Shown here: positions 9,079-42,429 of the stretch, piece after piece
Numbering within the stretch: position 1 is the first letter of the stretch
How the letters are laid out: the number at the start of each line of letters is the position of its first letter
Assembly: GCA_018780145.1 (NCBI GenBank)
Contig: JADMKA010000028.1
Span: 1-56,366 of the forward strand
Length of the DNA: 56,366 nt
Reading direction: 5' to 3'
Origin: Vitreoscilla sp.
GTDB taxonomy: Bacteria; Pseudomonadota; Gammaproteobacteria; Burkholderiales; Burkholderiaceae_C
Notes under the pieces: model-generated
The model's database searches: none
What the model saw: the letters and a program-made list of their open reading frames with translations, nothing else
Told to the model about the DNA's origin: nothing
Made by a program: the position numbers and the translations under genes

Positions 9079-9111
9079 ACACAGCTGCGTCATGCAGCCC
9101 GGGCACGCTTC

Positions 9112-9128: not shown

Positions 9129-9142
9129 ACGAGGCGACCGCC

Positions 9143-21025: not shown

Positions 21026-21799
21026 ATGAACCCCACTTTGTCCGACGCGCCCGAAGCGGGCGACGCCTTCCTGCGCGGTGTCGAGGCCGCGCATGCGATC
21101 GCGTCGCCTCAGCAACTGTTCATCTGGTTGCGACTGCACCTGCACCGCTTCATCCCCCACGACCTCGCGCTGTGCTGGGCCGACGCCGGCCGCGAGCCCG
21201 GTGGCGCCGGAGTGCGGGTGCTCAATTGCGTGCCCTTGCCGGATGCCCTGACCAGCGGCCTGGCCGACCCCACGGCGCGTCTCTGGCACGTGCTGGCGGA
21301 GCGTTGGGCGCAGGGTGGGGAGCGGGCCCGATGGCTTGCGCTGGACGGGTTGGGCGACGACCTGCCCGCACACCTGGGGCGCGCCGGCTTCTCCCAGGTG
21401 CTGGTGCACGCCGTGCGACTCGGGCAGCGCCAACGGGCCGACCTGTTGATCGCCTTTCTCCGGCAGAGCCCGGGCGATCCGTCGGTGGCCAACCAGGCGC
21501 TGACCGCCCTGGAACTGTGGATGCCCTATCTGCACTTCGCGTTCGTGCGTGCCGAGGAGGCCGTGCTGCGCCGGCCGGCCAGCCGCACGCACGATGGCAC
21601 GGCCAGGGTGCTCACGGCACGCGAACTTCAGGTGCTGACAGCGGTGCGCGATGCGAAGGCCAATGCGCAGATCGGCCTGCTGCTGGGCATCAGCCCGCTG
21701 ACGGTGAAGAACCACCTGCGCAGCATCCAGAAGAAGTTGGGCGCGCACAACCGCGCGCACGCCGTGGCCGAGGCCATGTCGCGCCGGCTGATCTCGTGA
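21026..21799 (+). CDS. LuxR-type regulator, EpsA-like
   Basis: 257-residue transcription factor with a C-terminal LuxR/GerE helix-turn-helix from about residue 195: LTARELQVLTAVRDAKANAQ, then LLGISPLTVKNHLRSIQKKLG. The N-terminal domain (LRGVEAAHAIASPQQLFIWL...FIPHD) resembles the sensor half of EpsA-type regulators of exopolysaccharide loci rather than a receiver or an acyl-homoserine-lactone domain; no phosphorylatable Asp block is present. It lies between the divergent GlfT2-like gene and the rightward exported-protein gene, so it is the natural candidate regulator for the Galf/TPS region (inference). Confidence 0.82.
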   Translation: MNPTLSDAPEAGDAFLRGVEAAHAIASPQQLFIWLRLHLHRFIPHDLALCWADAGREPGGAGVRVLNCVPLPDALTSGLADPTARLWHVLAERWAQGGERARWLALDGLGDDLPAHLGRAGFSQVLVHAVRLGQRQRADLLIAFLRQSPGDPSVANQALTALELWMPYLHFAFVRAEEAVLRRPASRTHDGTARVLTARELQVLTAVRDAKANAQIGLLLGISPLTVKNHLRSIQKKLGAHNRAHAVAEAMSRRLIS

Positions 21800-23407: not shown

Positions 23408-23424
23408 TCCAGCACGTCGTTGGG

Positions 23425-23448
23425 GCAAGCCGGCCCGTGCCGGCTTGC
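23425..23448 (+). terminator. First of two hairpins after the exported protein gene
   Basis: Perfect 9-bp stem gcaagccgg / ccggcttgc with a cccgtg loop, 17 bp after the stop codon. Very stable but not followed by Ts; it probably acts together with the next hairpin. Confidence 0.5.
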
Positions 23449-23455
23449 ACATCGA

Positions 23456-23496
23456 GGGCAGGCGCGGCCACCGGCCGTGCCTGCCCTGTTCCGTTT
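23456..23496 (+). terminator. Strong hairpin with T-rich tail before glf
   Basis: A 14-bp stem, 23456-23469 paired with 23473-23486, with one G-T wobble and a 3-base acc loop, followed by tgttccgttt. This is a good intrinsic terminator for the exported-protein gene. As glf starts 18 bp further on with no obvious own promoter, it may act as an attenuator setting the ratio between that gene and the operon. Confidence 0.65.
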
Positions 23497-23514
23497 CAGT
23501 GAGCCCACTTGTCC

Positions 23515-24675
23515 ATGAGCCAGAAGATCCTGATCGTCGGCGCCGGCCTGTACGGCGCGGTCTGTGCCCGCGAACTGCACGACGCCGGACACCGGGTGCA
23601 GGTGATCGAACAGCGGGCCCAGCCCGGCGGCAACTGCGCCACCCGCTTCGTGCCCGAGGCCGATTGCCATGAGCACCTGCACGGCGCGCACATCTTCCAC
23701 ACCGACAGCGAGCGCATCTGGGACTACGTGAACCGGTTCGCGCGCTTCAACAGCTACGTCAACCGCGTCAAGGTCCGGCGAGGCGATGCGCTCTACAGCT
23801 TCCCGATCAACCTGTTCACCCTGCACCAGGTGTTCGGCGCCCGCACACCCGCGGAGGCGCGCGCCGCGGTGGCGCGCGAGCGCGTCGAGATCGCCGCGCC
23901 CGCGAACCTGGAGGAGCACTGCCTGGCCACGGTCGGACCGACGCTCTACCAGCTGTTCATCGAGGGCTACACCACCAAGCAATGGCGCCGCCACCCGCGC
24001 GAACTGCCGGCCGAGATCATCCAGCGCATCCCAGTGCGCTTCGACTTCAACGACAACTACTTCAACGACCGCTTCCAGGGCATCCCGATCGGCGGCTACA
24101 GCGCGATGTTCGACCGCCTGCTGGCGGGTGTGTCGGTCGAGTTCGGGGTCGATTTCCTGCGCGACGCCGATCACTGGCTCACGCGCTTCGACCACGTGAT
24201 CTACACCGGCCCGATCGACGCCTTCTTCTGGCATTGCCACGGCCCGCTCGAATACCGCTCGCTGCGCTTCGAGCGCGAGCTGCTGCCGATGGCCGATTTC
24301 CAGGGCAACGCGGTCGTCAACTACGCCGATGCCGACGTGCCCTACACCCGCATCATCGAGCACCGCCACTTCGACCCGCCGGGTGCGGCGCGCAGCGCGG
24401 CGGCCACCCACACCCTGATCACCCGCGAGTACCCGGCCGACCACACGCCGGGCAGCGAGCCCTACTACCCGGTGGGCACGGCCGCCAACCGGGCCCGCTT
24501 CGATCGCTACCGCCGCCTCGCCGACGAACTGGGCGGCCAGGTTCACTTCGGGGGCCGGCTGGCCGAGTACCGCTACTACGACATGCACCAGGTGATCGGC
24601 GCCGCCCTGGCCCATGTGCGCCGGCACCTCGGCCGCGAGCGTCACGGGGTTGTCACCGAACCCGGCCTGGCATGA
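23515..24675 (+). CDS. glf: UDP-galactopyranose mutase
   Basis: FAD enzyme that interconverts UDP-galactopyranose and UDP-galactofuranose, the donor for galactofuranosyltransferases. The 386-residue protein begins with the FAD-binding ILIVGAGLYGAVCARELHDAG and GGNC motifs. It has the family blocks LHGAHIFHT, YSFPINLFTLHQVFG and the mobile-loop region EGYTTKQWRRHP, then IPIGGYSAMFDRLL near the flavin. ATG 23515 is preferred; TTG 23509 is in frame but has no better ribosome site. The stop overlaps the tpsB start as ATGA, so the mutase is translationally coupled to the secretion transporter. Confidence 0.95.
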   Translation: MSQKILIVGAGLYGAVCARELHDAGHRVQVIEQRAQPGGNCATRFVPEADCHEHLHGAHIFHTDSERIWDYVNRFARFNSYVNRVKVRRGDALYSFPINLFTLHQVFGARTPAEARAAVARERVEIAAPANLEEHCLATVGPTLYQLFIEGYTTKQWRRHPRELPAEIIQRIPVRFDFNDNYFNDRFQGIPIGGYSAMFDRLLAGVSVEFGVDFLRDADHWLTRFDHVIYTGPIDAFFWHCHGPLEYRSLRFERELLPMADFQGNAVVNYADADVPYTRIIEHRHFDPPGAARSAAATHTLITREYPADHTPGSEPYYPVGTAANRARFDRYRRLADELGGQVHFGGRLAEYRYYDMHQVIGAALAHVRRHLGRERHGVVTEPGLA

Positions 24676-26354
24676 GCCGTTCGGCCCATGCGTTGCCGGG
24701 GCCGGCGTCACCCCGGCTGGCGAACATCGTCGCCGTGAGATCTGCTTTCGTCACCGCCGTGTTGATGCTGCTGCTGGCCGTCGCCGCTCCGTGCCGCGCG
24801 CAGGCCGAGGCCGCGCCTTTCGACCTGCTGGAGATCGAGGTCGAAGGCAACAGCGTGCTCGGGGCGCCGGCCATCGAGGCCGCGATCGAGCCCCATCTGG
24901 GCCCGGGCAAGGGCATGGCCGGCGTCGAGGCGGCGCGTTCGTCACTCGAGGCGGCCTACCAGAAGGCCGGCTACCTGACGGTGCTGGTGGATGTGCCCGA
25001 GCAGCGCATCGCGGCCGGCGTGGTGCGCCTGGTCGTCATCGAGGGCCGGGTGGGCGGGCTGTACGTGACCGGTTCGCGCTACCACGACCAGGGTTTCATC
25101 CGCGGCCGCGTGAGCGAGCTGGCCGCGGGCTCGGTGCCGGATTTCAACCGGGTTCAGGCCCAGCTCGCCAGCGTCAACCGCACGGAGGACCGCCGCGTGC
25201 AGCCGGTGCTCAAGCCCGGCCGCCTGCCTGGAACGGTGGATGTGGACCTGCAGGTGGCCGACAGCCTGCCGCTGTCGGGCACGCTGGAGATGAACAACCA
25301 GCACGCCTTCGGCACCGACGCGCTGCGCGCCTCCGCCTCGTTGCGCTACGACAACCTGTTCCAGCTCGACCACACGCTGTCGCTGACCCTGCTGACCGCG
25401 CCGATGCAGCCCGAGCAGTCGCGCGTGCTGGTGGCCAACTACAGCATCCCCGAAGGCGAGGCCGACAACTGGACGCTGTCGCTGACCTACTCCGACAGCG
25501 ACGTCGAGACCCTGGGCGGCACCCAGGTGCTGGGCAACGGCACCACGCTGGGACTGCGGCGGGCCATCGCCATCGGCCGGCGCGGCGTGACCAGCGGTGC
25601 CCTGACGGTGGGCGCCGACCTGAAGCTGCTGAAGGAGCGCACGGTCTTTGGTGCCGGCGAGATCTCGACGCCGTTGCGCTACCTGCCGTTCCAGCTGGGC
25701 TACAACGACCAGTGGAGCGAAGGGGCCTTGCGCCTGCAGTGGAACGGCTCGCTCACCGCCGCGATGAAGGCGCTGCTCCAGCGCGACGTGGCGTGCCCGC
25801 TGGCCAATGGCGACAGCGCGCCGCAGGATCAGTTCAGCTGCAAGCGCCAGGGAGGCGACGGCAGTTTCCTGGTCGGCCGGTTCGACCTGCGTGCCAGCCA
25901 CGGCCTGGACCTCGGTGCCGGTCCCGGCAGTGTGTCGGCTCGCCTGGGTGGCCAGGTGGCGGCCAGGCCCCTGGTCAGCCCTGAGCAGTATTCGATCGGC
26001 GGCGCCGAGACGGTGCGCGGCTACTTCGAGAGCGCCGCCAGCGGCGACCATGCGCTGCTGGGCTCGCTGGAGTGGCGAACGTTCAACCTCGCGTCGGCCC
26101 TCGGCCCGGCCTGGCGTGACGCCACCCCGCTGCTGTTCGTCGACGCCGGCCGCGTCTGGACGCTGGAGCCGGCTGCCGGGCAGAGCCCGCGGCTGTCGCT
26201 GGCCGGCGCGGGCGTCGGCCTGCGGGTGGCCGGCGGCGAGGCCGGTGCCGGCAGCGCGGAAGCTGCCATCGACTTTGCGTGGCCTCTGCGTGCCACCGCC
26301 AACACCGCCTTGGGCGACGTGCGTGTGCACGCCCGCCTGTCCGCCCGCTTCTGA
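24672..26354 (+). CDS. TpsB/ShlB-family two-partner secretion transporter
   Basis: Outer-membrane transporter of 560 residues for the TpsA exoprotein. The start overlaps glf as ATGA. An N-terminal signal region (about residues 20-45, ending PCRAQA) is followed by two POTRA domains: about 50-125 (DLLEIEVEGNSVLG through VVIEG) and about 126-205 (VGGLYVTGSRYHDQ through LQVAD). A 16-stranded beta barrel follows. The barrel-lid loop L6 motif VRGY is at about residues 448-451 in GGAETVRGYFES, and the chain ends in phenylalanine (LSARF), as outer-membrane barrels do. tpsA starts 14 bp downstream. Confidence 0.95.
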   Translation: MSRSAHALPGPASPRLANIVAVRSAFVTAVLMLLLAVAAPCRAQAEAAPFDLLEIEVEGNSVLGAPAIEAAIEPHLGPGKGMAGVEAARSSLEAAYQKAGYLTVLVDVPEQRIAAGVVRLVVIEGRVGGLYVTGSRYHDQGFIRGRVSELAAGSVPDFNRVQAQLASVNRTEDRRVQPVLKPGRLPGTVDVDLQVADSLPLSGTLEMNNQHAFGTDALRASASLRYDNLFQLDHTLSLTLLTAPMQPEQSRVLVANYSIPEGEADNWTLSLTYSDSDVETLGGTQVLGNGTTLGLRRAIAIGRRGVTSGALTVGADLKLLKERTVFGAGEISTPLRYLPFQLGYNDQWSEGALRLQWNGSLTAAMKALLQRDVACPLANGDSAPQDQFSCKRQGGDGSFLVGRFDLRASHGLDLGAGPGSVSARLGGQVAARPLVSPEQYSIGGAETVRGYFESAASGDHALLGSLEWRTFNLASALGPAWRDATPLLFVDAGRVWTLEPAAGQSPRLSLAGAGVGLRVAGGEAGAGSAEAAIDFAWPLRATANTALGDVRVHARLSARF

Positions 26355-26368
26355 ACCGAGCACCTGCC

Positions 26369-29300
26369 ATGCGCCCCGCCTCCGCCCGCCCCGCCCGCAG
26401 CCTCGCCACTCGCCTGACGCCGTTGATGGCCGCCCTGGCGGCCGCCTGGCCGCTGCTCGTCGCCGCGCAGCAGCGGCCTGCGGCAAACACCGTGCCGGTG
26501 CCGAGCGCCAGCTGGCGCGTGCAAGGCAGCGGCGCCGCCGCGCCGGTGAACCGGGCCAACTCCCACGGCGGTGTCGACCAGACCATCACGCAGGACAGCC
26601 AGAAAGCCATCTACCAGTGGCAGCGCTTCGACATCGGCGCCAACAGCAGCGTCAACTTCGACATGAAGCTGGCCAACGCCAGCGCGCTGAACCGCGTGCT
26701 GGGCTCGACGGCACCCTCGCAGATCTTCGGCAAGCTGAGCGCCACCAATGGTGGTGAGATCTACCTGATCAACGCCAACGGCATCCTGTTCGGCCGCGGT
26801 GCGCAGGTGAACACCGGTTCGTTGATCGCCTCGGCGCTGAACATCAGCGATGCCGAGTTCAACTCCGGCCTCACCAACAACCTGCTGTTCGACAAGACCA
26901 CGCCGGCCTTCCGCTACGACGGCACGCCAGAGAACTTCATCGACGCGAAGAACTTCGTCCGCGTCGAGGACGGTGCGCAGATCACCACCGCGAACGGCGG
27001 CCGGGTCTTCCTGTTCGCCAAGCGGGTGGAGAACGGCGGCCAGATCAGCACGCCGGGCGGGCAGACGATGCTGGCCGGTGGCGGTGCGATCTACCTGCAG
27101 TCGCCCGACGACCAGATCGCCCTGTACGCCTCGGAGTCCAACCCGTCCGTGCCCACGCTGCGTGGCCTGCTGGTCGAGGTGGGTGGCGGGCCGGGCCTGG
27201 CGCCCGAGGGGGCGCATGGCAGTGCCGCCAACCTGGCCACCGGCGTCATCAGCACGCCGCGCGGCAATGCCACGCTGGTGGGCATGGCCGTGAACCAGAT
27301 GGGGCGCGTCAGCGCCACCACCTCGGTCACCGAGAACGGCTCGATCATCCTGCGCGCGCAGGGCGCGGCACAGTCGTCGAACGAGGGCGTGCGAGCCACC
27401 CGGGCCGGCGCGCTGGTGCTCGGCGCCGGTAGCCAGACCACCATCGCGGCGGACGATGGCCGCAGCCAGAACGACGGCCAACCGCTGACCAGCGACGGCA
27501 ACGCCACCTTCGTCAACCCGCGCATCGATCTGGCGGGGCAGAGCGTGTTGCTGGACCGTGGTGCACAGGTCGTGGCCCCGGGCGCGACTGTCGACGTGCG
27601 GGCCGAGCGCACGCCCAGCTACGCCGCCTACGACCAGCGGGCCTTCACCGCCGATGGCGCCGGCGACGCACGCATCGTGCTGGCCGACGGGGCGCTGATC
27701 GACGTCTCCGGCCTCACCACGGCTACCGACAGCGTGTCGCGTTATTTCGTCACCACCGAACTGCTGGGCAGCAACGACCTGAAGGACGCACCGCTGCAGA
27801 AGGACGGGCTGCTCTTCCGCAGCAAGGCGACGATCGACGTGCGCGAGGACTCGGCGATCCTCGGCAGCCTGGAGAGCTACCGCGAGGGCATCCAGCAATC
27901 GATCGAGGAGCGGCTGTCGGCCGGCGGCGAGGTCCGGCTGACGGCCGGGCGCGGTGTGCTGACCCACGCGAACTCGCGCATCGACGTCTCCGGCGGGCAG
28001 GTGAACCTGACGGCGGCCGATGTGCGCGAGACCCAACTGATCGGCGCCAACGGCCAGGTCGTCGACCTGAACGACGCACCGGCCGACCAGGTCTACAGCA
28101 GCGCCCTGAACCTGCAGCGTGGCAGCGCGGCAGGCTACGACCGCTGGGGCGTGAAGGTCAACTTCGGCGCCCTGACACCCACCCACCATGAAGAGGGTTA
28201 TGTCGAGGGCCGCGCGGCCGGCTCGGTGCGCATCGTCGCGCCCCGGGTGGTACTCGAAGGTGTGCTCGACGCCCAGGTGGTGAACGGCACGCGGCAGCAG
28301 CAGGGGCAGGACACGCTGGCCCCGCGCGGCAGCTTCAGCGTGGGTGCGGTCAGCCAGAACGGGCAGGACTTCAACAGCGCGACCTACGGTGCGAACGCGG
28401 TGCTGGATTCGTTCAACCTCAGCACCCTCGGCCCGCAAGATACCGAAGCCGTCTGGGACGATCCGCTGACCTCGGTCCTGCCGGCGGTGTCGGGCATGAA
28501 GCGCGACCTGCTGCTTCGGTCCGGCTTCGGCCAAGTGGCGGTCGTCGCAGACGGCAACGTGTCGGTGCTGGGTCAATCGGCCTCGGCCACCCTCGATCTC
28601 GGCGACCAGGCCACGCTGCGCCTGCTGTCGCTCAACGGCGATGTCACGCTGGGCGGGGCCACCACCAGCGCGGCGGGCCGGGTCGAGCTCATCAGCAAGG
28701 CAGGCGACGTGTCGCTCGCCGCCGGTTCCAGCGTGGACCTGGCGGGCCGGTTCATCAATGCCTTCCAGGACGGCCCCTCGGCCGCCAACGCCATCACCGG
28801 TGGCAGCTTCTCCGCCAGCGGCAACACGGGTGTGAACCTGTCTGCCGGTACGCGGGTGGATGTCTCGGGCGGTGCGCTGGTCGACGCCACGGGCAAGACC
28901 ACGGGCGGCAACGCCGGGGCCATCAGCCTGGCCCATACGGCCTTGTTGCCGGGCGACGCACCGGGCCTCACGATGGACGGGCAACTGCGCGGCGCCTCGC
29001 TGGCCACCGGCGGCAGCCTGACCCTCACCGCCCCGGTGGTGCAGATTGGCGGCAGCGCGGTCGAAGCCGGCGTGCTGACCCTCGACCCCACTCAGTTCAC
29101 GGCAGGGGGCTTCTCGTCCTACAGCGTGGACGGCCGGCGCGAATTGAGCGTGGCCGCCGACACGGCGCTGACACTGCGTCGCGACGAATTCCAGATCGAT
29201 CCGCGTGCGGCCGTGCTGGCCCCCAGCGGCACGCCGCTCGCCGGTCTGCTGAGCGCCGGCCCGGCGCCCGGCGTGGCCCCGGCGCCGATGCAACTCAGCC

Positions 29301-32300
29301 TGCGTTCGTCGGGCACCGACGCCGAAACCGGCTCGCTGACGGTGGGCACCGGTGCCCGCATCGAGACCCCGGCGTTGTCCAGCGTCACCCTGTCGGCCGC
29401 CAACCGCCTGCTGGTGGACGGTGAGGTTCACGCGGCCGGCGGCAACATCGCGCTGGCCATCGACGCCCGCCAACAGGCCGTGCCGGGCGTTGCCACCGGG
29501 ACCACGCTCTGGGTGGGCGAGCATGCGCGGCTCGATGTCTCGGGACAGGTGATCCTGGCGCCGGCCACCAACGGCTTGCGCCAGGGCAGCGTGCTGGCCG
29601 GCGGCCGCATCACGCTGGCCGCCAAGGGCGGCAGCGGCACCGAGCCGGTGCTGGTCCTCCAGCAAGGCGCGCAGCTCGACGCGGCCGGCGCCAGCGCCGT
29701 GCTCGACCGCGCCGTGCTGACCGATGGCGGCATCCGCTGGCAGCGCGGCGAGGTGGCCAGCAACGGCGGCAGCGTGGCCATCGAGGCCAACCGCGCGCTG
29801 GTGACCGAGGGCCGCATCGACCTGCACGCCGGCGGCGCAGGGGCCAGCGGCGGCAGCCTGGCCGTCACGCTGACGGCCAGCGGCACCGCCCTGGGCCCCG
29901 ACGCGCCTGAAAACCAGCTGCGCGAGCTGCGTGTGGCCGCCGGCCCCACCACCCGGACCGCCGGCATCGCGCTGGGGGACACCGCAGCCATCGACGGCCT
30001 CACCGCCATCGCCTCGGTCTCCACCGCGTTGGTGAAGGACTCCGGCGCCGCGAACCTGACGCTGGAGGCGCGCGACGCGGTGCGTTTCCTCGAGGGCGCG
30101 GATCTGGCACTGGACGGCACCCTCACCCTGGCCTCGCGTTCGCTGGCGGTGCAGCCCGATCAGGCCGTGCAGGTCGCGGCGGGCCAGGTGGTGCTGCGCG
30201 GTGTGCGGGTCGACAGCGGCACCCAGGTGCCGGTGCCGGTGGCCCGCGAAGGCAGCGCGACGCTCGAACTGCAGTCGCGCGGTGGCATGCTAGTGACAGG
30301 TGACTGGGTGACCACCGGCATCGACCAGCTGACCCTGAAGGCCCGGGGCGACCTGATGCTGCAGGGCGCCAGCAGCACGGTCTTCAGCGGCAGCCTGGCC
30401 ACCGCGGGCGACCTGGCGATCGAGGCCCGCCAGGTCTACCCCGGCACCCAGACGCATTTCGAGATCGACGCCACCGGGCGGGACGTGAGCATCTCGCGCC
30501 CCGACGGCATCGGCACCGCCGAATCGCCGCTCAGCGCGGGCGGCCAGCTGGTGGTCGACGCGGCCACCATCACCCAGGGCGGCACGGTGCGGGCGCCGCA
30601 GGGCCGCATCGAACTGCGCGGCAACGAGTCGGTGACGCTCGGCGCCGGCAGCCAGACCTCGGTCTCCGCCGCCGGGCTGGTGCTGCCCTATGGCAGCAGT
30701 GCCGGCGGCCGTTGGCTCGCCCCCGATCGCAGCGTGATCACCGCCACGCCGGGCAAGCGGGTGGATCTGCTGGCCCCCGAAGTGGCCGTGAGCGCGGGTG
30801 CCAGCGTCGACCTGGGTGGCGGTGGCGATCTGGTCGCCTACGAGTTCGTGCCGGGCCGAGGCGGCAGCACCGACGTGTTCGCCGGCGGCAACGGCGCCTA
30901 TGCGCTGGTGCCCGGCGTGCACACCGCCGCCAGCTACGACCCCACGCTGGCCGGCGCCGCCGCGCTGGGCCGGCAGATCGAGATCGGCGCCGGCGCGCCG
31001 CTGCCGGCCGGCACCTACACCCTGCTGCCGGCACGTTATGCCCTGCAGCCCGGTGCCTACCTGGTCGAGCCGGTCAAGGCGAGCACCCCGTTGGCAATCG
31101 GCACCGTGGTCGCCCAGGCCGATGGCTCGGCCTGGATCGGGGCGCGCCTGCGCACCGAAGGCACGGGCGCGGTCGACGCCTTCCCGAGTACCTGGCGCCT
31201 CAGCAGCGCCGAGGTGGCGCGCCAGCGCACCGAGATCCGTGCCACGTCCGCCAACGCCGAGTTCGCCGCCCGCGCGGCGGCGCAGGGCGTGGTGGCCCCC
31301 GAGCGGCCCGCCGATGCAGGCACCTTCAGCCTGGACACCGTCAACGCCCGCTTGGAGGGCCAGATCACCCTGGCTGGCGCCACCGGCCAAGTGGCTGGCC
31401 GCGGCGGGCGTGCCGAGTTCGTGGCGGGGCAGATCGTGGTCGGCGACGCTGCGGCCGACGGCGCGCTGCGCATCGGCGTGGCCACCCTGAACGGCCTCGG
31501 CGCCCAGACGGTGGTGCTGGGCGCACGCAGCGGCGTCGACGGCGGCACCGAGCTCGACGTCGGCGCACGGACGGTGACCCTGGCCGGGGGCGAGCAGGCG
31601 CTGTCGGTGCCGGACCTGGTGGTGGCGGCGACCGAGGAGATCCGCGTCGAGGCGAGCAGCACCGTCGTGGCCGCGCCGGTATCCGGCACCGCCCCGGCGC
31701 CCATCGCCTATGCCCTCGCCGGCGACGGCGCTGCCCTGCGCGTGTCGAACCAGGGCGGTGCCACGCTGTCTCGCAGCCAGGCCGACGGCGCGGCCGGCGT
31801 GCTGCAGGTGGGCGAGGGCAGCCGCCTGGACGCCGGTGCCGGCAGCCTGTTGCTCGATGCCACGCGGGACACGCGGATCGCCGCGTCGGCCACGCTGCAC
31901 GCAGACGAGCTGACCCTCGGCGCGCGGGCCATCACCATCGGCGGGCCGTTGGCCGGCCCCGGTGTGCTGGCCCTCACGCCGCGCCTGCTCGATCAAGTCA
32001 GCCAGGCCGGGCAGCTGACCCTGCACGCTTACCAGCAGATCAACCTGAAGGACGGCGCGGTGCTGGGCGAGGACGAGCGCGGCACGCCGACTCTCGATCG
32101 GCTCGTGCTCGACACGCCCAACCTGCGCGTGGCCGAAGCCGCCCAGGCGGGCGCCCGCATCACCGCCGGCGAGATCACCTTGACGGACAGCGGCGACACG
32201 GCCTCCGCCGTGGCCACGGCGGGTGCCGGGCACCTGACGCTGAGCGCCAGCACCGCCGCCGGCGGCAGCGGCGACATCCGCCTGGCCGACGGCAGCCTGG

Positions 32301-35300: not shown

Positions 35301-36736
35301 GCCAGGGCTTGCAGGCCGTGGGCAACGTCGACAACTCGACCCGCCTGCCCGCGCAGAGTGCCCAGCTGAGCCTGGTGGCCGGGCTGCGCGCCGATGGCGC
35401 CGACCTGGCGGACGCCACCCGGCGTGGTTTCGCGGCCATCGGCGCCGCGGCCTTGCGTGACCGTGCCGGCGACGTGTACGCGTTGCTGAACGGGCAGGGG
35501 GGCACGCTGGGCAGCGCGGAGGCCCTCGCCTTCGATGCCGCCGATCTCGACAGCCGCCTGGCCCAGGTCCGCACCCTGCTCGGAGAGGCGGTCTATGACG
35601 CCTCGTTGGTGAGTTATGTCCGAAGCCTGCCGGGCCATGCGGGTGACAGCGATGCGGCGGCACGGCAGGCCTTCGACAGCCTGTCTGCGGTGAAGCGCGA
35701 CGCGGCGCCGGGTGCCTTGCTGGCCGAGGCCTTCGGGCACCTGCCGCAAGCCGAGCGCCTGCCGTTCATTGCCCAGGTCGCCACCCGCGATGCGGCCGAG
35801 ACGGCGAAGGGGCTGCTGGCGTTCATGCAGTCCCACGAGGGGCGTGCGCTGAGCCTGGCCGATGCGCTGGCCGCCTTCGAGGCCCTGCCGGTCGAGCGAC
35901 AGATGCTGAGGCTGAGCGAGGTGCTGGTCGACGAGGTCCGCCAGCATGGCCGGGCGGCCGTCGGCGCGCGGCTGGCCGACGACAAGGAGGCGGCCTACGA
36001 CCGCGGCTACGCGGCCATCGACACGCTGTTCCCGCTGGACCGCCCGTCGGGCGACATCAACCTGCCGTCGACCCAGGTGCGCACCTTGCAGGGCTCGGGC
36101 ATCACGCTGCTGGCCCCGGGTGGCGGCATCAACGCCGGCGAAACCGGCGGCACCAGCACCAACGCCAGCTCGCTGGGCGTGGTCACGGTGGCCGGTGGCG
36201 GCATCGCGGGCGTCGCCCGCGACGACATCCTGGTCAACCAGTCACGCATCTTCACGCTGGCGCAGGGCGACATCCTGCTGTGGTCCTCGCTGGGCGACGT
36301 GGACGCCGGCCGTGGCGCCAAGACGGTGGTCGGCGCGCCGCCGCCGGTGTTCCGGCTCGACGCCAACGGCCGCATCGTGGTCGACACCAGTGGCTCGTTC
36401 AGCGGCAGTGGCATCGCCGCTTTGAGCGCCGACAGCGCGCTGGATCTCTACGCGCCCGCCGGGGCCATCGACGCCGGCGAGGCCGGCATCCGCGCGCTGG
36501 GCACCGTGACGCTGGGCGCCGACGTGATCCGTGGTGCCGACGACATCCGTGGCGGCAGTGTGCAGGGCGCGCCCCCCGCCGCCCCCACCGTGGGCCTCAC
36601 GGCGGGCCTGGCCAGCGCCGCCGACGCCGCCAACACGGCCCAGCGCGGCAGCGGTGATGACGAGGAGGAGCAGCGCCGCAAGCGCCGCGCCCGCCGCAGC
36701 CTGCTGCTGGAGTTCCTCGGCTTCGGCCGCGGCTGA
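26369..36736 (+). CDS. TpsA: giant filamentous-haemagglutinin-like exoprotein with DUF3739-like end
   Basis: Predicted surface or secreted beta-helical exoprotein of 3,455 residues, partner of the upstream TpsB. A signal peptide ends near residue 34 (LLVAAQQ). The TPS recognition domain covers about residues 60-330, with NSHGGVDQTI, the WQRFDIG segment and NANGILFG at 135-142 (the NPNGI-type motif). Thousands of residues of degenerate beta-helix repeats follow. Near 3010-3230 is a helical, non-repetitive block (for example QAERLPFIAQVATRDAAET). A DUF3739-like module follows at about 3230-3345, with GGGIAGVARDDILVNQSRIF and LLWSSLGDVDAGRGAKT. The C terminus ends in the basic tail RRKRRARRSLLLEFLGFGRG. 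I find no cysteine in the whole chain. Confidence 0.93.
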   Translation: MRPASARPARSLATRLTPLMAALAAAWPLLVAAQQRPAANTVPVPSASWRVQGSGAAAPVNRANSHGGVDQTITQDSQKAIYQWQRFDIGANSSVNFDMKLANASALNRVLGSTAPSQIFGKLSATNGGEIYLINANGILFGRGAQVNTGSLIASALNISDAEFNSGLTNNLLFDKTTPAFRYDGTPENFIDAKNFVRVEDGAQITTANGGRVFLFAKRVENGGQISTPGGQTMLAGGGAIYLQSPDDQIALYASESNPSVPTLRGLLVEVGGGPGLAPEGAHGSAANLATGVISTPRGNATLVGMAVNQMGRVSATTSVTENGSIILRAQGAAQSSNEGVRATRAGALVLGAGSQTTIAADDGRSQNDGQPLTSDGNATFVNPRIDLAGQSVLLDRGAQVVAPGATVDVRAERTPSYAAYDQRAFTADGAGDARIVLADGALIDVSGLTTATDSVSRYFVTTELLGSNDLKDAPLQKDGLLFRSKATIDVREDSAILGSLESYREGIQQSIEERLSAGGEVRLTAGRGVLTHANSRIDVSGGQVNLTAADVRETQLIGANGQVVDLNDAPADQVYSSALNLQRGSAAGYDRWGVKVNFGALTPTHHEEGYVEGRAAGSVRIVAPRVVLEGVLDAQVVNGTRQQQGQDTLAPRGSFSVGAVSQNGQDFNSATYGANAVLDSFNLSTLGPQDTEAVWDDPLTSVLPAVSGMKRDLLLRSGFGQVAVVADGNVSVLGQSASATLDLGDQATLRLLSLNGDVTLGGATTSAAGRVELISKAGDVSLAAGSSVDLAGRFINAFQDGPSAANAITGGSFSASGNTGVNLSAGTRVDVSGGALVDATGKTTGGNAGAISLAHTALLPGDAPGLTMDGQLRGASLATGGSLTLTAPVVQIGGSAVEAGVLTLDPTQFTAGGFSSYSVDGRRELSVAADTALTLRRDEFQIDPRAAVLAPSGTPLAGLLSAGPAPGVAPAPMQLSLRSSGTDAETGSLTVGTGARIETPALSSVTLSAANRLLVDGEVHAAGGNIALAIDARQQAVPGVATGTTLWVGEHARLDVSGQVILAPATNGLRQGSVLAGGRITLAAKGGSGTEPVLVLQQGAQLDAAGASAVLDRAVLTDGGIRWQRGEVASNGGSVAIEANRALVTEGRIDLHAGGAGASGGSLAVTLTASGTALGPDAPENQLRELRVAAGPTTRTAGIALGDTAAIDGLTAIASVSTALVKDSGAANLTLEARDAVRFLEGADLALDGTLTLASRSLAVQPDQAVQVAAGQVVLRGVRVDSGTQVPVPVAREGSATLELQSRGGMLVTGDWVTTGIDQLTLKARGDLMLQGASSTVFSGSLATAGDLAIEARQVYPGTQTHFEIDATGRDVSISRPDGIGTAESPLSAGGQLVVDAATITQGGTVRAPQGRIELRGNESVTLGAGSQTSVSAAGLVLPYGSSAGGRWLAPDRSVITATPGKRVDLLAPEVAVSAGASVDLGGGGDLVAYEFVPGRGGSTDVFAGGNGAYALVPGVHTAASYDPTLAGAAALGRQIEIGAGAPLPAGTYTLLPARYALQPGAYLVEPVKASTPLAIGTVVAQADGSAWIGARLRTEGTGAVDAFPSTWRLSSAEVARQRTEIRATSANAEFAARAAAQGVVAPERPADAGTFSLDTVNARLEGQITLAGATGQVAGRGGRAEFVAGQIVVGDAAADGALRIGVATLNGLGAQTVVLGARSGVDGGTELDVGARTVTLAGGEQALSVPDLVVAATEEIRVEASSTVVAAPVSGTAPAPIAYALAGDGAALRVSNQGGATLSRSQADGAAGVLQVGEGSRLDAGAGSLLLDATRDTRIAASATLHADELTLGARAITIGGPLAGPGVLALTPRLLDQVSQAGQLTLHAYQQINLKDGAVLGEDERGTPTLDRLVLDTPNLRVAEAAQAGARITAGEITLTDSGDTASAVATAGAGHLTLSASTAAGGSGDIRLADGSLAVNGAASLVLNADHALALAGRDGRLVTAGDLHVSARGIVAEATAAGQVIQADGKLTTTSPAGSVAPASALGGSLTLQAASLEHGGRVVLPSGEMLVDTVGALTLREGSRIDVAGSEATIGDAVVALPGGRVSLGTAEGDLAMHGGVINVSGAGTAAGGRLLLAAPQGLVEVRGQLRGTSGGADGAELTIDSGERIDVAALARRMGEADPASFAGAISLRQRSGDLELGALTTLSAHDIALSADAGAVTVRGTLDARGADGGRIELSAHDGLTLAPGSVLNASATADDGEGGRIALASAAGTLRLQDGARIELAGGALGESGRLLLQARRLGVSDAVPSGTGVDIAPLQAEINGAGRIDVEAVKVYEGVSRVTDFAFPVQDGTLLASTLAADGRAFAGTLGGKADLIAARLADGDSALESLLRIHAGAEIRSDGDLSVELLGGAWSLASESTEITQRGGNASHVGDSTVTLRAAGDLAVRSSIDAGSHFGVDSAAGGSLRFVAGGDLRIGKENAGRPADLKIVTSTGDIVMQAGGDVNLVTGRARAYSTGRLSDDPAAIAARQTLLRADVFRVGAGDIRVEAGESVRSRAVTLSDNSHYADAGLLAAHPSAWARSGSFAGLAYWTSQPDASGAGLQHGVASFGGGRVEVTAGIDIDQMVAASPSSGFIDGDGAHRYGGGSVRFDAGRDVVGGLAQAGGRDLQVQAGRDIALPADPDADGSPSALILANENTAVRVGSRRDLQLGALQSSHALNGSWISGLEADASARVVASAGDLGYQSVAEPLASDNASNAVLGVLPTQVTLAAPQGSIAIGRAPGGPMPMIQQAQGAETGLDLLAQNHVEVAASLQVNASWTQGVAYHDASGQDTDSLTGEGLPGSAWLALAYNDLSRGDGAGLDRSDRHTVRVVAAEGDLTVSGAIRSARPVALTAGRDIAFTGNNVNSGLEIQHQAVRLDAGAPAAVPSELSVLQAGRDIVLGNARIRQAGPGDLLLLAGRDIDLGRGQGLQAVGNVDNSTRLPAQSAQLSLVAGLRADGADLADATRRGFAAIGAAALRDRAGDVYALLNGQGGTLGSAEALAFDAADLDSRLAQVRTLLGEAVYDASLVSYVRSLPGHAGDSDAAARQAFDSLSAVKRDAAPGALLAEAFGHLPQAERLPFIAQVATRDAAETAKGLLAFMQSHEGRALSLADALAAFEALPVERQMLRLSEVLVDEVRQHGRAAVGARLADDKEAAYDRGYAAIDTLFPLDRPSGDINLPSTQVRTLQGSGITLLAPGGGINAGETGGTSTNASSLGVVTVAGGGIAGVARDDILVNQSRIFTLAQGDILLWSSLGDVDAGRGAKTVVGAPPPVFRLDANGRIVVDTSGSFSGSGIAALSADSALDLYAPAGAIDAGEAGIRALGTVTLGADVIRGADDIRGGSVQGAPPAAPTVGLTAGLASAADAANTAQRGSGDDEEEQRRKRRARRSLLLEFLGFGRG

Positions 36737-36771
36737 CCTGACCAATGAACGTTCCTGACGAGACCTCCACC

Positions 36772-38451
36772 ATGATCCGCAAACTGCTCCTCGTTCTGGC
36801 CCTCGCGGCCGGCTTCAGCGCCCCGGCGCACGCCTGGTGGAACGACGACTGGACCACTCGCACCCGTGTCGTCATCGACACCACCGACAAGGGCCTGGCG
36901 TTGCCCTCGGCGCAGACCGATGTGGTGGTGCCGCTGCGCCTGCACTCGGGCAACTTCGACTTCGGCGTGGCCCAGGCGGATGGCAACGACCTGCGCGTGG
37001 TGGCCGGCGACGACAAGACCCCGCTGCCGTTCGAGGTCGAGCGCTTCGACCCGATCAACGAACTCGCGGTGCTGTGGGTGCGCCTGCCCGCGGTGGCGCA
37101 GGGCAGTGACGCAAACGTGGTCCATGTCTACGCCGGCAACGACAAGGCCGTGGCCGAGGGACGCGCGCCGGTGTTCGCCGCCCCGCATGCGTTGGTGCTG
37201 CATTTCGGTGAGGCCGAGGGGCCCGCCGTGGATGCGGCCGGTGGGCTGGCCAGCGCGGCACCGGTGGTGCGCGAGGCCAACGGTCTGCTCGGCGGGGCCG
37301 CCAAGTTGTCAGGCACGGCCCTGGAGTGGCCGGTGAGCCCCAAGCTGGCGCTGGCGCCGAGCGGTGCGTTGACGATCGCGATGTGGTTGCGGCCGGAGGC
37401 GCCTGCCGAATCGTCGACCCTGTTGTCGCTGGGGCCGCTGAAGCTGATGCGCGTGCTCGACCAGGTCGAGGCGCGCATCGACAGCGAGAAGATCGCCGCC
37501 GCCGCATTGCCAGGCTCGACCTGGTCGCATGTGGCGCTCACCGTGGTGGGCGGGAAGGCGGTGCTCTACATCAACGGCAAGCCGGCCGGCCAGGCCGATG
37601 TGCTGCTGCCCAACGCCAGCGCGCCGCTGCTGTTGGGGGCCGGGTACAAGGGCCTGATCGACGAACTGCAGGTTCTTGCCAGCGCGCGCGATGAGGGTTG
37701 GGTGAAGCTGGCCGCCGCGGTGCAGGGCATGGACGCCAGCGCGGTGAAGAGCCAGAAGGAAAGCCAGGGCGGCGAATCCGGCGGCGAGCCGGGCTACATG
37801 GGCATCCTGCTGAAAAACCTGACCACCGACGCGTGGGTGGTGATCGTGATCCTGATGGTGATGTTCGTCATCGCCGTCTGGGTGATGGTGACCAAGGCGC
37901 AGATGGTGATCCGCATCGGCGACGCCAACGACCGTTTCCTGGAGCGCTTCCGCGAGGACCTCTCGGGCGCCGGCCTGAAGGACGCCGGCGACCTGTCGCG
38001 CTCGACGCTGTACCAGCTCCACCGGATGGGCGAGGCCGAGATCGACAAGCGCCGCGCGCGGGGCGTGACCCGGTTGTCCGGGGCCTCGCTGGACGCCATC
38101 AAGGCCACGCTCGACGCGGTGCAGGTGCGCGAGAACCACAAGCTGAACGCCCGCATGGTGCTGCTGACCATCGCCATTGCCGGCGGGCCGTTCCTGGGGC
38201 TGCTGGGCACCGTGGTCGGCGTGATGATCACCTTCGCGGCCATCGCCGCGGCCGGCGATGTCAACGTCAACGCCATCGCCCCCGGCATCGCCGCCGCCCT
38301 GCTGGCCACGGTGGCCGGCCTGGGCGTCGCGATCCCGGCGCTGTTTGGCTACAACTACCTGGCCTCGCGCATCAAGAACATCTCGGCGGACATGCAGATC
38401 TTCGTCGACGAGTTCGTCACCCGCGCGGCCGAGCTGCACGGCCAGCAGTAG
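36772..38451 (+). CDS. DUF2341-LamG-ExbB fusion: proton-channel subunit with periplasmic sensor or binding head
   Basis: 559-residue membrane protein. A signal peptide (MIRKLLLVLALAAGFSAPAHA) leads to WWNDDWTTRTRVVIDTT, the DUF2341 hallmark, then a LamG/concanavalin-like domain at about residues 130-290 (ALTIAMWLRPEA, WSHVALTVVGGKAVLYINGK). The first ExbB helix lies near 350-372. The MotA/TolQ/ExbB core has GPFLGLLGTVVGVMITF near 470 and a third helix near 505-533. It thus joins a carbohydrate-binding-like periplasmic head to a proton-channel subunit. ATG 36772 is chosen because it starts the signal peptide; ATG 36745 is an alternative start. It follows tpsA by 35 bp. Confidence 0.92.
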   Translation: MIRKLLLVLALAAGFSAPAHAWWNDDWTTRTRVVIDTTDKGLALPSAQTDVVVPLRLHSGNFDFGVAQADGNDLRVVAGDDKTPLPFEVERFDPINELAVLWVRLPAVAQGSDANVVHVYAGNDKAVAEGRAPVFAAPHALVLHFGEAEGPAVDAAGGLASAAPVVREANGLLGGAAKLSGTALEWPVSPKLALAPSGALTIAMWLRPEAPAESSTLLSLGPLKLMRVLDQVEARIDSEKIAAAALPGSTWSHVALTVVGGKAVLYINGKPAGQADVLLPNASAPLLLGAGYKGLIDELQVLASARDEGWVKLAAAVQGMDASAVKSQKESQGGESGGEPGYMGILLKNLTTDAWVVIVILMVMFVIAVWVMVTKAQMVIRIGDANDRFLERFREDLSGAGLKDAGDLSRSTLYQLHRMGEAEIDKRRARGVTRLSGASLDAIKATLDAVQVRENHKLNARMVLLTIAIAGGPFLGLLGTVVGVMITFAAIAAAGDVNVNAIAPGIAAALLATVAGLGVAIPALFGYNYLASRIKNISADMQIFVDEFVTRAAELHGQQ

Positions 38452-38467
38452 GAACCGGGCCCGCGCC

Positions 38468-38881
38468 ATGTCCGCCGACATCAAGGACGACAACCAGCCG
38501 TACGACGACATCAACATCACGCCGATGCTGGATCTCGCCTACGTGCTGCTGGTGACCTTCATCATCCTGACCACCGCTTCGGTGCAGGGTGTGAAGGTGA
38601 ACTCGCCGCGCACGCTGGCCGCCAACCAGCTGGCCAAGCCGCAGACGCGGGCCATCACCATCACCTCGGACGGCGCGATGTTCCTCGACGCCTACCCTGT
38701 GACGCTGGAGGAGTTGTCGCAGCGCCTGGCCACCTACAAGGCCGCCAACCCGGCCTTGCCGGTGGTGCTGAAGGCGGATGCCCGCACGCAGTACCAGAGG
38801 GTCACCGAGGTGCTGGAGGTGGCCAAGAAGCTGGACATCACCGAGTTGGGCCTGGTCACCCAGCGGGTCGTGGCGGAGTAG
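38468..38881 (+). CDS. exbD: ExbD-family proton-channel subunit (first copy)
   Basis: 137-residue inner-membrane protein with one transmembrane helix and a periplasmic domain, partner of ExbB. The proton-carrying aspartate is Asp22 in NITPMLDLAYVLLVTF. The periplasmic part has AITITSDGAMFLDAYPVTLEEL and ends ELGLVTQRVVAE. It starts 16 bp after the ExbB-fusion gene and is followed by a second exbD after 4 bp. Confidence 0.93.
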   Translation: MSADIKDDNQPYDDINITPMLDLAYVLLVTFIILTTASVQGVKVNSPRTLAANQLAKPQTRAITITSDGAMFLDAYPVTLEELSQRLATYKAANPALPVVLKADARTQYQRVTEVLEVAKKLDITELGLVTQRVVAE

Positions 38882-38885
38882 GCCC

Positions 38886-39287
38886 ATGCAAGTCCAGAAC
38901 GACACCAAGCCCTACGACACGATCAACGTGACGCCCATGCTCGACCTGGCCTATGTGCTGCTGGTGGTCTTCATCCTGATGACCACCGCCTCGGTACAGG
39001 GCCTGTCGATCAGCCTGCCCAAGCCGTCGAACAAGCCGTCCACCGAACGGCACGAGCTGCTGATCGTGCAGGTCGCCGCCAGCGGCGCGCTGCTGCTCAA
39101 CGGGGCGGCCCTGTCCATCGCCGAGATCGAGCAGCGCCTCACGCAGGCCAAGGCGGCCGACCCGAAGATGACCGTGGCCATCAAGGGCGACCCCACGGCG
39201 GCCTATGAGCAGGTGGTGCAGGTCATCGACCTGTGCAACCGCCTGGCCGTCGACATGGCGCTGGTCACCTCGCGCATCGGCACCTGA
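38886..39287 (+). CDS. exbD: ExbD-family proton-channel subunit (second copy)
   Basis: 133-residue paralogue of the preceding gene. The membrane motif NVTPMLDLAYVLLVVF, with Asp20, is almost the same, but the periplasmic domain differs (LLIVQVAASGALLLNGAALS), so the two ExbDs are not interchangeable copies. It suggests a heteromeric ExbD pair in one complex. The gap to the TonB-like gene is 23 bp. Confidence 0.93.
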   Translation: MQVQNDTKPYDTINVTPMLDLAYVLLVVFILMTTASVQGLSISLPKPSNKPSTERHELLIVQVAASGALLLNGAALSIAEIEQRLTQAKAADPKMTVAIKGDPTAAYEQVVQVIDLCNRLAVDMALVTSRIGT

Positions 39288-39310
39288 GCCGGCACCTGAA
39301 CGGAGCACCC

Positions 39311-40024
39311 ATGCACCACACCACCGCCCTGATCGCCCGCCGCCACGCCGTGAGGTCGCATGCTGCCGGCCGCGCCCTGCCGGTGCTCGTGCAACGCATG
39401 GCCATCGGGCTGGTCGGCGCGCTGCTGGTCGCCGCGGCCGCCTGGGCGCTGAGCCGGCTCAGCCACGACGCGCCGGTGCCGAAACGGCAGGTCGCGCGCA
39501 TCTCGGTGTTGCCGGACACGCCCCCCCCGCCGCCCCCACCACCGCCCAAGGAGCAGAAGGCCGAGGCCAGCAAGGAGGCGCGCCCGCAGCCCAAGGCCGA
39601 GCCGACACCGCAGCCGCCAGCGGCCAACGAGCCGATCAAGATGGAGGGCGCGGCCGGCGACGGGCCCAGTGCCTTCGCCGCAGGCGCCGTCACCAACGAC
39701 TACCGCGGCGGCCCGACCACCGGCGGGGCGGCATCTGCGGCTGCCGTCGGCGACCGTGCTGCCGAGCGCCTGTATGCCGGCACGGTGCGGCAGATCCTGC
39801 GCGACGAGATCGAGCGCCAGCTGAGCCCGGAGGCCGGCGAGCTGAGCGCCAGCTTCGCGCTGTGGATCGCCGGCGACGGCCGCATTTCGCGCTGGGAGGC
39901 CGAGGCCGCCGCCCCGGCCCTGAAGACCGCGCTGGACCGCAGCGCCGACACGCTGCGGCTCCCCGCGCCGCCCGCCTTCGCCCAGCCGATGCGCTTCAAG
40001 CTCACCGTGCGCGCCGGCGGCTGA
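39311..40024 (+). CDS. TonB-like energy transducer
   Basis: 237-residue bitopic protein with TonB architecture: a short cytoplasmic N terminus, one helix at about residues 30-49, a run of nine prolines (71-79) followed by Lys/Pro/Glu-rich linker, and a compact C-terminal domain (AERLYAGTVRQILRDEIERQ through RFKLTVRAGG). The helix lacks a mid-membrane histidine of the classical TonB SxxxH type. A cggag sequence precedes the ATG. It should transmit proton-motive energy from the ExbBD proteins to an outer-membrane partner; the TpsB barrel or the downstream porin-like protein are candidates (inference). Confidence 0.82.
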   Translation: MHHTTALIARRHAVRSHAAGRALPVLVQRMAIGLVGALLVAAAAWALSRLSHDAPVPKRQVARISVLPDTPPPPPPPPPKEQKAEASKEARPQPKAEPTPQPPAANEPIKMEGAAGDGPSAFAAGAVTNDYRGGPTTGGAASAAAVGDRAAERLYAGTVRQILRDEIERQLSPEAGELSASFALWIAGDGRISRWEAEAAAPALKTALDRSADTLRLPAPPAFAQPMRFKLTVRAGG

Positions 40025-40058
40025 GCCCCCTGACAACCTGTCCCTTTCCGGAGTTCCC

Positions 40059-41753: not shown

Positions 41754-41781
41754 GGCCTGTCCACGCTATGGGAGTCCGACG

Positions 41782-42429
41782 ATGAACCGAACGCTTCGTA
41801 CCGCGGCCCTGCTGGCGGGCCTGTGCGCCACCGGCCTGGCCGGGGCTCAGGACGCCGGCGACAAGCGCGTGGCCCAGGCCCGCGAGGCGGCGCGCCGTGC
41901 CCAGGCCGCGCTGCAACAGGCCCAGCAGGAGCGCGACCAACTGCGCCAGCAGCAGGCCACTGCCACGGCCGAGAAGGAGCAGATCGGCCAACGCCTGACC
42001 CAGGCCGAAGCCCGGGCGCGGGCGGCCACCACGGGCCAGGCGCAGCTGCGTGAGTCGCTGGCTGCGGCGCAGGCGGAACTGGCCCGCGCCCGCGCCGAAC
42101 TGGCCACCGAGCGCCAGGCCCGCGAACAGGCCGAGCAACAGGCCGGCCAGGCCCGCGAGCAGGGGGCGCAGGCACTGTCTGCACAGCGCCAGGTCACCGC
42201 CTCGGTGGTCGCGTTGCTGGAGCGCAGCGTGCAGGCGCTCGCCAAGGCCGAACAGGCCAACCGCAGCTTGCATGGCCTGGGCCTGCAGGCGGTTCAGGCC
42301 TACACCGAGCGCACACCCGAGGCGATGCGTTCACGCAGCGACCCGTTCCTGGCGCTCGGTGCGGTGCGCCTGGAGGACGAGGCAGAGGCCTTGCGCAAGG
42401 AACTGGACGCCCAGCGGGTCGCCCCATGA
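41782..42429 (+). CDS. Periplasmic coiled-coil protein, last gene of the TPS operon
   Basis: 215-residue exported protein. A signal peptide (MNRTLRTAALLAGLCATGLAGA) is followed by about 120 residues of Gln/Ala/Arg/Glu-rich heptads (for example AREAARRAQAALQQAQQERDQL), which should form one long coiled coil, and a C-terminal helical segment with RSDPFLALGAVRLEDEAE. It starts 28 bp after the porin-like gene, preceded by a ggag sequence. It could be a periplasmic scaffold or spacer for the secretion/TonB machinery; no enzymatic motif is seen. Confidence 0.75.
   Translation: MNRTLRTAALLAGLCATGLAGAQDAGDKRVAQAREAARRAQAALQQAQQERDQLRQQQATATAEKEQIGQRLTQAEARARAATTGQAQLRESLAAAQAELARARAELATERQAREQAEQQAGQAREQGAQALSAQRQVTASVVALLERSVQALAKAEQANRSLHGLGLQAVQAYTERTPEAMRSRSDPFLALGAVRLEDEAEALRKELDAQRVAP

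Follow-up and report, generated by a model that had tools for sequence, protein, structure and literature searches.

A two-partner secretion system equipped with an ExbB-ExbD-TonB motor in Vitreoscilla sp. and its relatives

In a stretch of 56,366 nucleotides of DNA from Vitreoscilla sp. (assembly GCA_018780145.1, contig JADMKA010000028.1, positions 1 to 56,366 of the forward strand; hereafter the window), which belongs to a 5.57-Mb genome, the genes tpsB and tpsA of a two-partner secretion (TPS) pair are followed by genes for a motor of the ExbB-ExbD-TonB kind, a porin and a coiled-coil protein. This arrangement represents a conserved, class-specific, motor-equipped two-partner secretion system. 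Its exoprotein TpsA carries a DUF3739 domain, its ExbB begins with DUF2341, and the two are found together in genomes with hardly an exception; the gene order is not a matter of chance and the linkage between pair and motor is real. An earlier note, drawn from the letters of the window alone, had supposed that both parts form one system, and genome co-occurrence and gene order bear this out. Tentatively, and at somewhat less than an even chance, we take it for an envelope system in which the TonB-like protein pulls on a periplasmic tail of TpsA, and in which a phosphate-containing ligand is captured.

Co-occurrence and gene order of pair and motor

Co-occurrence was counted in three samples of genomes, at the level of the order (200 genomes), the class (274) and the phylum (249), a few genomes being common to samples. 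The order sample was queried with the ExbB protein of the window together with DUF3739, the class sample with a full-length ExbB profile and with DUF3739 matches over the cut-off. In the order, 22 genomes have both DUF3739 and the ExbB motor, one has the motor only, one DUF3739 only, and 176 neither; the corresponding figures in the class are 16, 1, 2 and 255. In the phylum both sets consist of the same six genomes, with neither in the other 243. All five discordant genomes have the gene at a contig end or on a tiny contig: the motor of G052 sits on a contig of 3.5 kb in a genome that is 84 per cent complete, the DUF3739 match of G135 lies 398 bases from a contig end, and the three exceptions of the class (G300, G398, G303) are all within 0.6 kb of contig ends. 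Fisher tests on these counts are a guide only, as they ignore kinship between genomes and the samples overlap slightly. The earlier note had named a lack of co-occurrence between TPS and motor genes as what would speak against a joint system; co-occurrence is near-obligate in the three samples. It does not extend to two-partner secretion at large. TPS domains are present in 34 of 70 genomes and the motor in ten of the same 70, all ten among the 34, while 24 of the 34 have no motor; the motor therefore goes with one class of TpsA. The porin follows suit: of the 23 genomes with the motor in the order sample, 22 match Porin_5 at E<1e-100, as does G082 (a fragment at a contig start), and five other genomes of that sample have only weak matches.

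The conserved gene order for which the earlier note had asked was sought in relatives gathered by one scan of genome contigs. It yielded 566, the best 80 of which are the named loci on which the counts of this paragraph rest unless another set is given. The order exbB-exbD-tonB-porin, on one strand, is kept in 64 of the 65 loci whose downstream part measures 4 kb or more, the exception being L104. The smallest gaps possible within this set have medians of 2 to 27 bases, which are lower bounds, the nearest start codon having been used. A match to the coiled-coil profile, a loose one, follows the porin in 64 of these 65. A TPS gene lies in the examined stretch of 75 of the 80 loci, and in 48 of the 49 that have more than 9 kb on both sides. 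The position of the pair varies: exbB may be preceded by tpsB-tpsA, by tpsA-tpsB or by tpsB alone, or both genes lie downstream. So does the number of exbD copies, two in 49 of 98 loci and one in the other 49, in a set that contains one contig twice (L081 = L130); the set of 77 TpsA used below contains at least this one duplicate. The closest named relatives of the window's ExbB come from two Ideonella species (64 per cent). Environmental type strains with the system include Roseateles saccharophilus DSM 654 (L052) and Aquabacterium commune DSM 11901 (L111). L122, for a time a candidate for an orphan motor, was rejected as such: TPS genes lie about 6-12 kb downstream of what is the sole motor found in that genome.

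Second copies of the DUF2341-ExbB, ExbD and TonB genes, with no porin beside them, stand in L115 (12050-14894), L117 (8197-11096) and L119 (9018-12142); judged by eye and by mutual similarity, one is amid a cluster resembling a type II secretion system (T2SS) and two are beside V-type ATPase-like genes. In L115, tpsB and a PstS-like gene belong to the neighbouring main system L116, and of L115 only the motor is a second copy. Surroundings of this kind, together with the other ExbB/TolQ homologues of the window genome, are what one would cite in favour of a mere conserved neighbourhood, where the motor serves general TonB-dependent transporters and is only co-regulated with the TPS pair. This we hold to be improbable, given the near-perfect co-occurrence with one class of TpsA and a tail of TpsA that is specific to that class.

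The TpsA tail, the motor and a PstS-like partner

When the ends of the 77 TpsA are aligned, DUF3739 is followed by a linker rich in A, S, G and T, of 44-63 residues (5th-95th percentile; measurable in 61 of the 77), and then by a short strand motif of about 12 residues, the consensus of which is near P-S-[FIL]-L-T-V-E-V-L-G-F-G (about PSFLTVEVLGFG). The motif is 1 to 45 residues from the end of the protein (5th-95th percentile), and the TpsA of the window has RRSLLLEFLGFG-RG. With a 12-column matrix built from the same 77 proteins, hence in-sample, 74 of them score above the best value (12.4) in a background of 4111 open reading frames (ORFs; stop-to-stop frames, many of them not genes). L076, L079 and L104 fall below it, and in L104 the chosen site differs from the motif seen by eye. 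Out of sample, in eight TpsA taken from five genomes, the score exceeds 8 in seven and 20 in six, a value above 8 being reached by 11 of the 4111 background frames; the eighth has a degenerate motif by eye. Among TpsA without DUF3739, of which 20 plus-strand proteins were picked and four are cut off, the motif is absent from all 16 complete ends, whose scores do not exceed 0.6. The C-terminal 310 residues were modelled with AlphaFold from 69 sequences. The model consists of a helical bundle and a confident DUF3739 beta-solenoid, after which the last 50 residues or so, motif included, have a mean predicted local distance difference test (pLDDT) score of about 49-63 in blocks of ten. To judge from this model of the monomer, the tail would be a free peptide. 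Foldseek with this C-terminal model gave no match at E<=0.001. Cysteine is about a hundredfold commoner in the tail (54 in 1952 residues) than in the body (50 in 200395), and 27 of the 77 tails have at least two. In L138, L141, L143 and L136 an extra segment, mutually alike by eye (near N-P-D-S...V-x-G-A-G), follows the motif. A different mark of the link was tried on the side of TpsB and dropped: TpsB proteins linked to a motor have by eye no classical Q/E/R-rich N-terminal plug helix, and neither do some unlinked ones of the order (for example L161, L164, L171), which makes the trait non-discriminating.

The motor has the families expected of a Ton system, MotA/TolQ/ExbB and ExbD/TolR. Its ExbB is unusual in build, with a signal peptide recognised by eye, then DUF2341, a LamG (ConA-like) domain and the channel part; it scores below the curated equivalog cut-offs (tolQ, 122.6 against 221 bits; exbB, 73.1 against 206.2) and therefore belongs to a separate branch. 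The TonB architecture, namely a transmembrane helix, a proline-rich stretch and a TonB-type C-terminal domain, is recognisable in a weak sense, with a single-sequence Pfam match below cut-off and weak E-values: when a profile of 68 relatives is compared with the PDB, the C-terminal domains of TonB, HasB and TolA align at the same columns in 10 of 24 matches (E 0.005-0.8), the three best matches being unrelated and in the N-terminal proline-rich part. Comparison of the TonB C-terminal domains of second-copy motors with those of the others brought out nothing clear on candidate tail-binding residues. Weak similarity to GltJ (E 0.0024, residues 30-151) might suggest a force-bearing machine for adhesion or surface movement, in which a motor of the ExbB/TolQ family, tied here to a giant adhesin-like protein, would tension or move the filament of 3455 residues as related motors do in gliding systems. 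We find this highly improbable: the GltJ match is mostly proline-rich or of low complexity, and both the porin and the PstS-like gene described next would be unexplained.

A gene for a PstS-like binding protein precedes tpsB, on its strand and no more than some 0.4 kb away, in 17 of 18 further loci in which tpsB is visible; in the sole exception the contig has only 1.0 kb before tpsB. Two more stretches complete this set of 20, one with tpsA and a PstS-like gene and no tpsB in view, one with no TPS gene. In many relatives this gene is a tenth part of the system and the conserved set starts one gene earlier than the earlier note had it. That note had described nine genes from glf, for UDP-galactopyranose mutase, to the coiled coil, and all nine are there; as a description of the conserved set it missed the PstS-like gene upstream and included glf, which is no member. 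Searched against the PDB, a profile of 25 PstS-like sequences has ten matches at E<=1, eight of the chains being annotated as phosphate-binding or as ABC substrate-binding proteins (best 5.8e-5); a ninth, Sll0540, we take to be PstS-like. PBP_like_2 is matched in 9 of the 25 family members (best 3.3e-9). A type II binding-protein fold with the sequence signature of PstS is thus found at the level of the family, the window member alone having no Pfam match. The conserved columns S-G-A-S-A, S-D and G-S-G-T presumably are the phosphate-binding positions of PstS; phosphate binding by the protein itself is putative. Small proteins of about 270 residues with the look of a signal peptide stand beside the PstS-like gene in L115 (3905-4729) and L122 (15473-16270).

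In the mechanism that we tentatively favour, the members would be TpsB, the DUF3739 TpsA, the DUF2341-LamG-ExbB, one or two ExbD, the TonB-like protein, Porin_5, the coiled-coil protein and often the PstS-like protein. TpsA would leave through TpsB by the usual route and be retained, its linker and strand motif staying in the periplasm, as disorder, conservation and the cysteine pair (in 27 of the 77 members, the window not among them) suggest. In known Ton systems, TonB exerts its pull on a short strand which an outer-membrane protein presents at its periplasmic end. Here the TonB-like protein, driven by ExbB-ExbD, would grip the tail motif by strand pairing and pull it inward, and the proton motive force would thus act on the surface-anchored TpsA and its exit complex. 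A phosphate-containing ligand caught at the surface might then enter via the porin and be handed to the PstS-like protein. That the tail meets the TonB-type domain is proposed because a free, conserved, strand-like peptide and such a domain share a near-obligate gene set; the capture and uptake step is proposed because of the PstS-like gene and of the control by phosphate starvation published for the relative in Pseudomonas aeruginosa. Put otherwise, the PstS-like gene and this control favour a role in uptake, and the conserved tail favours a motor acting on TpsA itself. In a bolder form, which we consider quite unlikely, the tail would be a TonB box on a secreted protein, and the TpsB barrel with its anchored TpsA a two-chain TonB-dependent transporter, with the plug and its TonB handle contributed by TpsA, so that the proton motive force would reach a surface filament for ligand capture or import.

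The motor might govern no more than the retention or release of TpsA, the TonB-like protein tethering the tail or freeing it on a signal, with porin and PstS-like genes as neighbouring functions. The motif and linker of the DUF3739 TpsA examined, not found at the 16 other TpsA ends, agree with it as well, as do a genome with three DUF3739 TpsA and a single motor, and the known cases of regulated tethering of CdrA and of anchoring of HMW1 and HxuA (PMC5422565). We deem this alternative somewhat unlikely, since it leaves unexplained the near-constant presence of the porin and of a PstS-like gene before tpsB.

Porin, known relatives and points against the proposal

For the porin, AlphaFold (65 sequences, pLDDT of 87.9) predicts a barrel of 16 strands that has three helices at its N-terminus. 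Helices two and three are joined by a poorly ordered segment in which a VRVPYVPE-like motif is conserved; by a strict pattern the motif is present in 55 of 87 porins. Neither the model nor Pfam shows a plug domain, so that this is not a usual TonB-dependent transporter. A motor that energises the porin, with TonB binding its N-terminal segment and opening the barrel, and with TpsA as a receptor delivering the ligand as HxuA does to HxuC, would account for the porin adjoining tonB in nearly all loci with room and for a conserved motif in a segment of low confidence, and it has a precedent in HxuABC (PMC5422565). It is nevertheless unlikely: the modelled barrel is of the plug-less porin type, with OmpM1 as best match, followed by AlgE and general porins, 32 of the 87 porin ORFs (some of them truncated) lack the strict motif, and the tail of TpsA would have no explanation. 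OmpM1, an outer-membrane attachment porin of Veillonella, is both the best structural match (E 1.3e-15) and the best profile match (E 4.8e-5); it is listed as an SLH-domain protein, whereas Pfam finds no SLH domain in the porin of the window.

The system has a known cousin. The earlier note pointed to a related set in P. aeruginosa, rightly: the pdtA/phdA locus (PUMA3/VreI, PhoB regulon) comprises a TPS pair (pdtA, pdtB), exbB2, exbD2, tonB4, PA0696, a 'putative outer membrane porin', and a small protein. A 2009 paper had noticed the association of TPS genes, ExbBD and PA0696 in a few genomes (PMC2729926), and in 2020 the motor was called uncharacterised (PMC7035377), which agrees with the view of the earlier note that its mechanism is not known to have been described. 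Expression of pdtA depends on PhoB and VreI (PMC7035377; operon map in PMC4971064), and PdtA, PA0696 and PA0698 are among the proteins most enriched under limitation of inorganic phosphate (Pi; PMC9769906). Compared by the gene names in these papers only, the order pdtB-exbB2-exbD2-tonB4-PA0696-PA0697 agrees with that of the window from exbB to porin. In P. aeruginosa, by contrast, a separate promoter serves pdtA, and the neighbour of exbB2 is pdtB, while in the window tpsA is between tpsB and exbB; there is one ExbD, the Hxc T2SS and VreAIR adjoin, and no PstS-like gene is named in the accessible description of the locus. HxuABC of Haemophilus influenzae resembles the system in combining an anchored TpsA with a TonB-driven step at the outer membrane for the acquisition of a nutrient (PMC5422565). 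It differs in that HxuC is an operon-encoded TonB-dependent transporter, whereas the barrel of the window is plug-less, and the accessible text mentions neither a private motor nor a PstS-like protein. A survey of MotAB and ExbBD proteins has DUF2341 on generic ion transporters with no function assigned, and in its accessible description makes no link to two-partner secretion (PMC12505986). HMW1 is a further point of comparison; it is not known to have a motor or a conserved strand motif like the present one. A C-terminal disulfide loop anchors HMW1 and HxuA and keeps the C-terminus in the periplasm (PMC5422565), to be compared with the tail cysteine pair of the 27 relatives. In the literature searched no paper names DUF3739; likewise, among the papers listed there, subscription papers (e.g. 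Faure 2013, 2014) excepted, none was seen to describe the tail motif, the near-obligate co-occurrence or a PstS-like partner.

A number of observations weigh against a motor that pulls on TpsA for the capture of a phosphate-containing ligand. A review describes two-partner secretion as independent of external energy and states that TPS export has been reconstituted without it (PMC5422565). Instead of the TonB-like protein, the partner of the tail could be TpsB, the porin or the lectin-like domain of ExbB, and the VRVPYVPE segment of the porin may be the target of TonB. The cysteine pair is missing in 50 of the 77 tails, that of the window has no cysteine, and the ends of TpsA without DUF3739 often have cysteines too. 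Three genomes hold a second motor copy with no adjoining porin, and G421, in the class sample, has no motor and matches DUF3739 below the threshold. As for phosphate, an earlier set of loci had the PstS-like gene with only 9 of 24 tpsB in the examined stretch, and none was found in the roughly 8 kb examined before tpsB in the Burkholderia, Paraburkholderia and Dyella loci L101, L107, L112 and L113, in all of which tpsB adjoins exbB; no Pho box of the E. coli type was found in the window. Finally, in P. aeruginosa, transposon mutants of the tpsA, tpsB and tonB homologues and of PA0696 had wild-type virulence in zebrafish when VreI was overproduced (PMC2729926). Should the motor indeed act on the tail, secreted adhesins could be subject to active pulling or gating or could serve as receptors, and TonB boxes would not be confined to the classical transporters. 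It would also give a concrete function to seek in the pdt locus, which is known, induced by Pi starvation, and unexplained.

Layout of the locus and neighbouring genes

Coordinates, starts and gaps of the nine-gene run were rechecked, and the one-strand, tightly spaced arrangement claimed for it stands: all nine genes start with ATG, and the gaps from glf to the coiled coil are -4, 14, 8, 16, 4, 23, 34 and 28 bp. Seven of the nine have a clear family assignment in Pfam. The pair qualifies as two-partner secretion (type Vb), tpsB having POTRA and a ShlB/FhaC-type barrel, and the adjacent tpsA an N-terminal TPS domain (Table 1).

Table 1. Features of the locus, in positions of the window.
Feature	Position	Strand	Evidence or remark
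LuxR-type regulator gene	21026..21799	+	GerE 2.6e-15; 42% identical homologue in the same place in Ideonella alba (L207)
PstS-like binding protein gene, signal peptide predicted by eye	21941..23407	+	translation; family profile against PDB
Two strong RNA hairpins between PstS-like gene and glf	23425..23487	+	second (23455-23487) terminator-like
glf, UDP-galactopyranose mutase	23515..24675	+	TIGR00031 E 7.1e-100; GLF 2.4e-71; 4-bp overlap with tpsB
tpsB, two-partner secretion transporter	24672..26354	+	POTRA_2 2.9e-15; ShlB 2.5e-27
tpsA, 3455-residue exoprotein	26369..36736	+	TPS 1.4e-21, residues 58-258; DUF3739 6e-28, residues 3300-3402
tpsA, predicted helical bundle just N-terminal of DUF3739	35804-36028 (residues ~3146-3220)	+	AlphaFold model
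tpsA, DUF3739 domain, predicted beta-solenoid	36266..36574	+	Pfam; AlphaFold model of last 310 residues
tpsA, C-terminal strand motif RRSLLLEFLGFG, ending a poorly ordered linker	36692..36727	+	alignment, matrix, AlphaFold
exbB with N-terminal DUF2341 and LamG (ConA-like)	36745..38451	+	DUF2341 1.7e-8; Laminin_G_3 1.1e-11; MotA_ExbB 1.8e-26
exbD, first copy	38468..38881	+	ExbD 8.8e-24
exbD, second copy	38886..39287	+	ExbD 1.5e-24
tonB-like gene: transmembrane helix (by eye), proline-rich stretch, TonB/TolA-type C-terminal domain	39311..40024	+	TonB_2 E 0.036 (below cut-off); profile
Porin_5 gene, modelled 16-strand barrel with N-terminal helices	40059..41753	+	Porin_5 1.8e-142; AlphaFold pLDDT 87.9
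Coiled-coil protein gene, predicted exported	41782..42429	+	no Pfam match near cut-off

The glf gene is a local insertion, outside the conserved set. The earlier note had made the supply of galactofuranose a part of the system, a role that has to be rejected: 7 of 40 system-carrying genomes checked, among those of the 80 named loci, own a glf, and in none of the seven was a TPS gene found beside it; in the examined stretches of the relatives no locus other than the window has a glf homologue. Ideonella alba has its glf about 262 kb from the system on the same contig, and there the PstS-like gene directly precedes tpsB with no glf between them. In G704, G705, G710 and G717 it is on a different contig from exbB and the TPS genes, and in G699 and G706 (tpsA runs off contig) no TPS or PstS-like gene is found within about 9-10 kb beside it. 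In the window, the interval between the PstS-like gene and glf (23408-23514) has an RNA fold z of -5.84, and the terminator-like match has a stem of 15 bp, one of 7 such matches in the region where 5.3 are expected; the hairpins may split or attenuate the transcript at this point.

Among eight upstream ORFs scanned, no sigma or anti-sigma family was found. In L112 (Paraburkholderia), ORFs upstream of tpsB (34-1326 and 5865-6881) have by eye the look of a signalling-domain protein, an extracytoplasmic function (ECF) sigma factor and GspK, and are reminiscent of published loci of P. aeruginosa and B. vietnamiensis. Genes of exopolysaccharide type recur downstream of the coiled-coil gene, for example in L074, L088, L089, L093, L105 and L114; ORF families named from single representatives as CAAX-protease-related, export protein, EpsL and EpsD are found there in 14, 12, 8 and 7 loci. 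In the window itself, the gene at 9092-11974 encodes a protein with LTD, an endonuclease/phosphatase-family domain and RTX repeats, which has the look of an extracellular nuclease and is a possible phosphate-scavenging neighbour.

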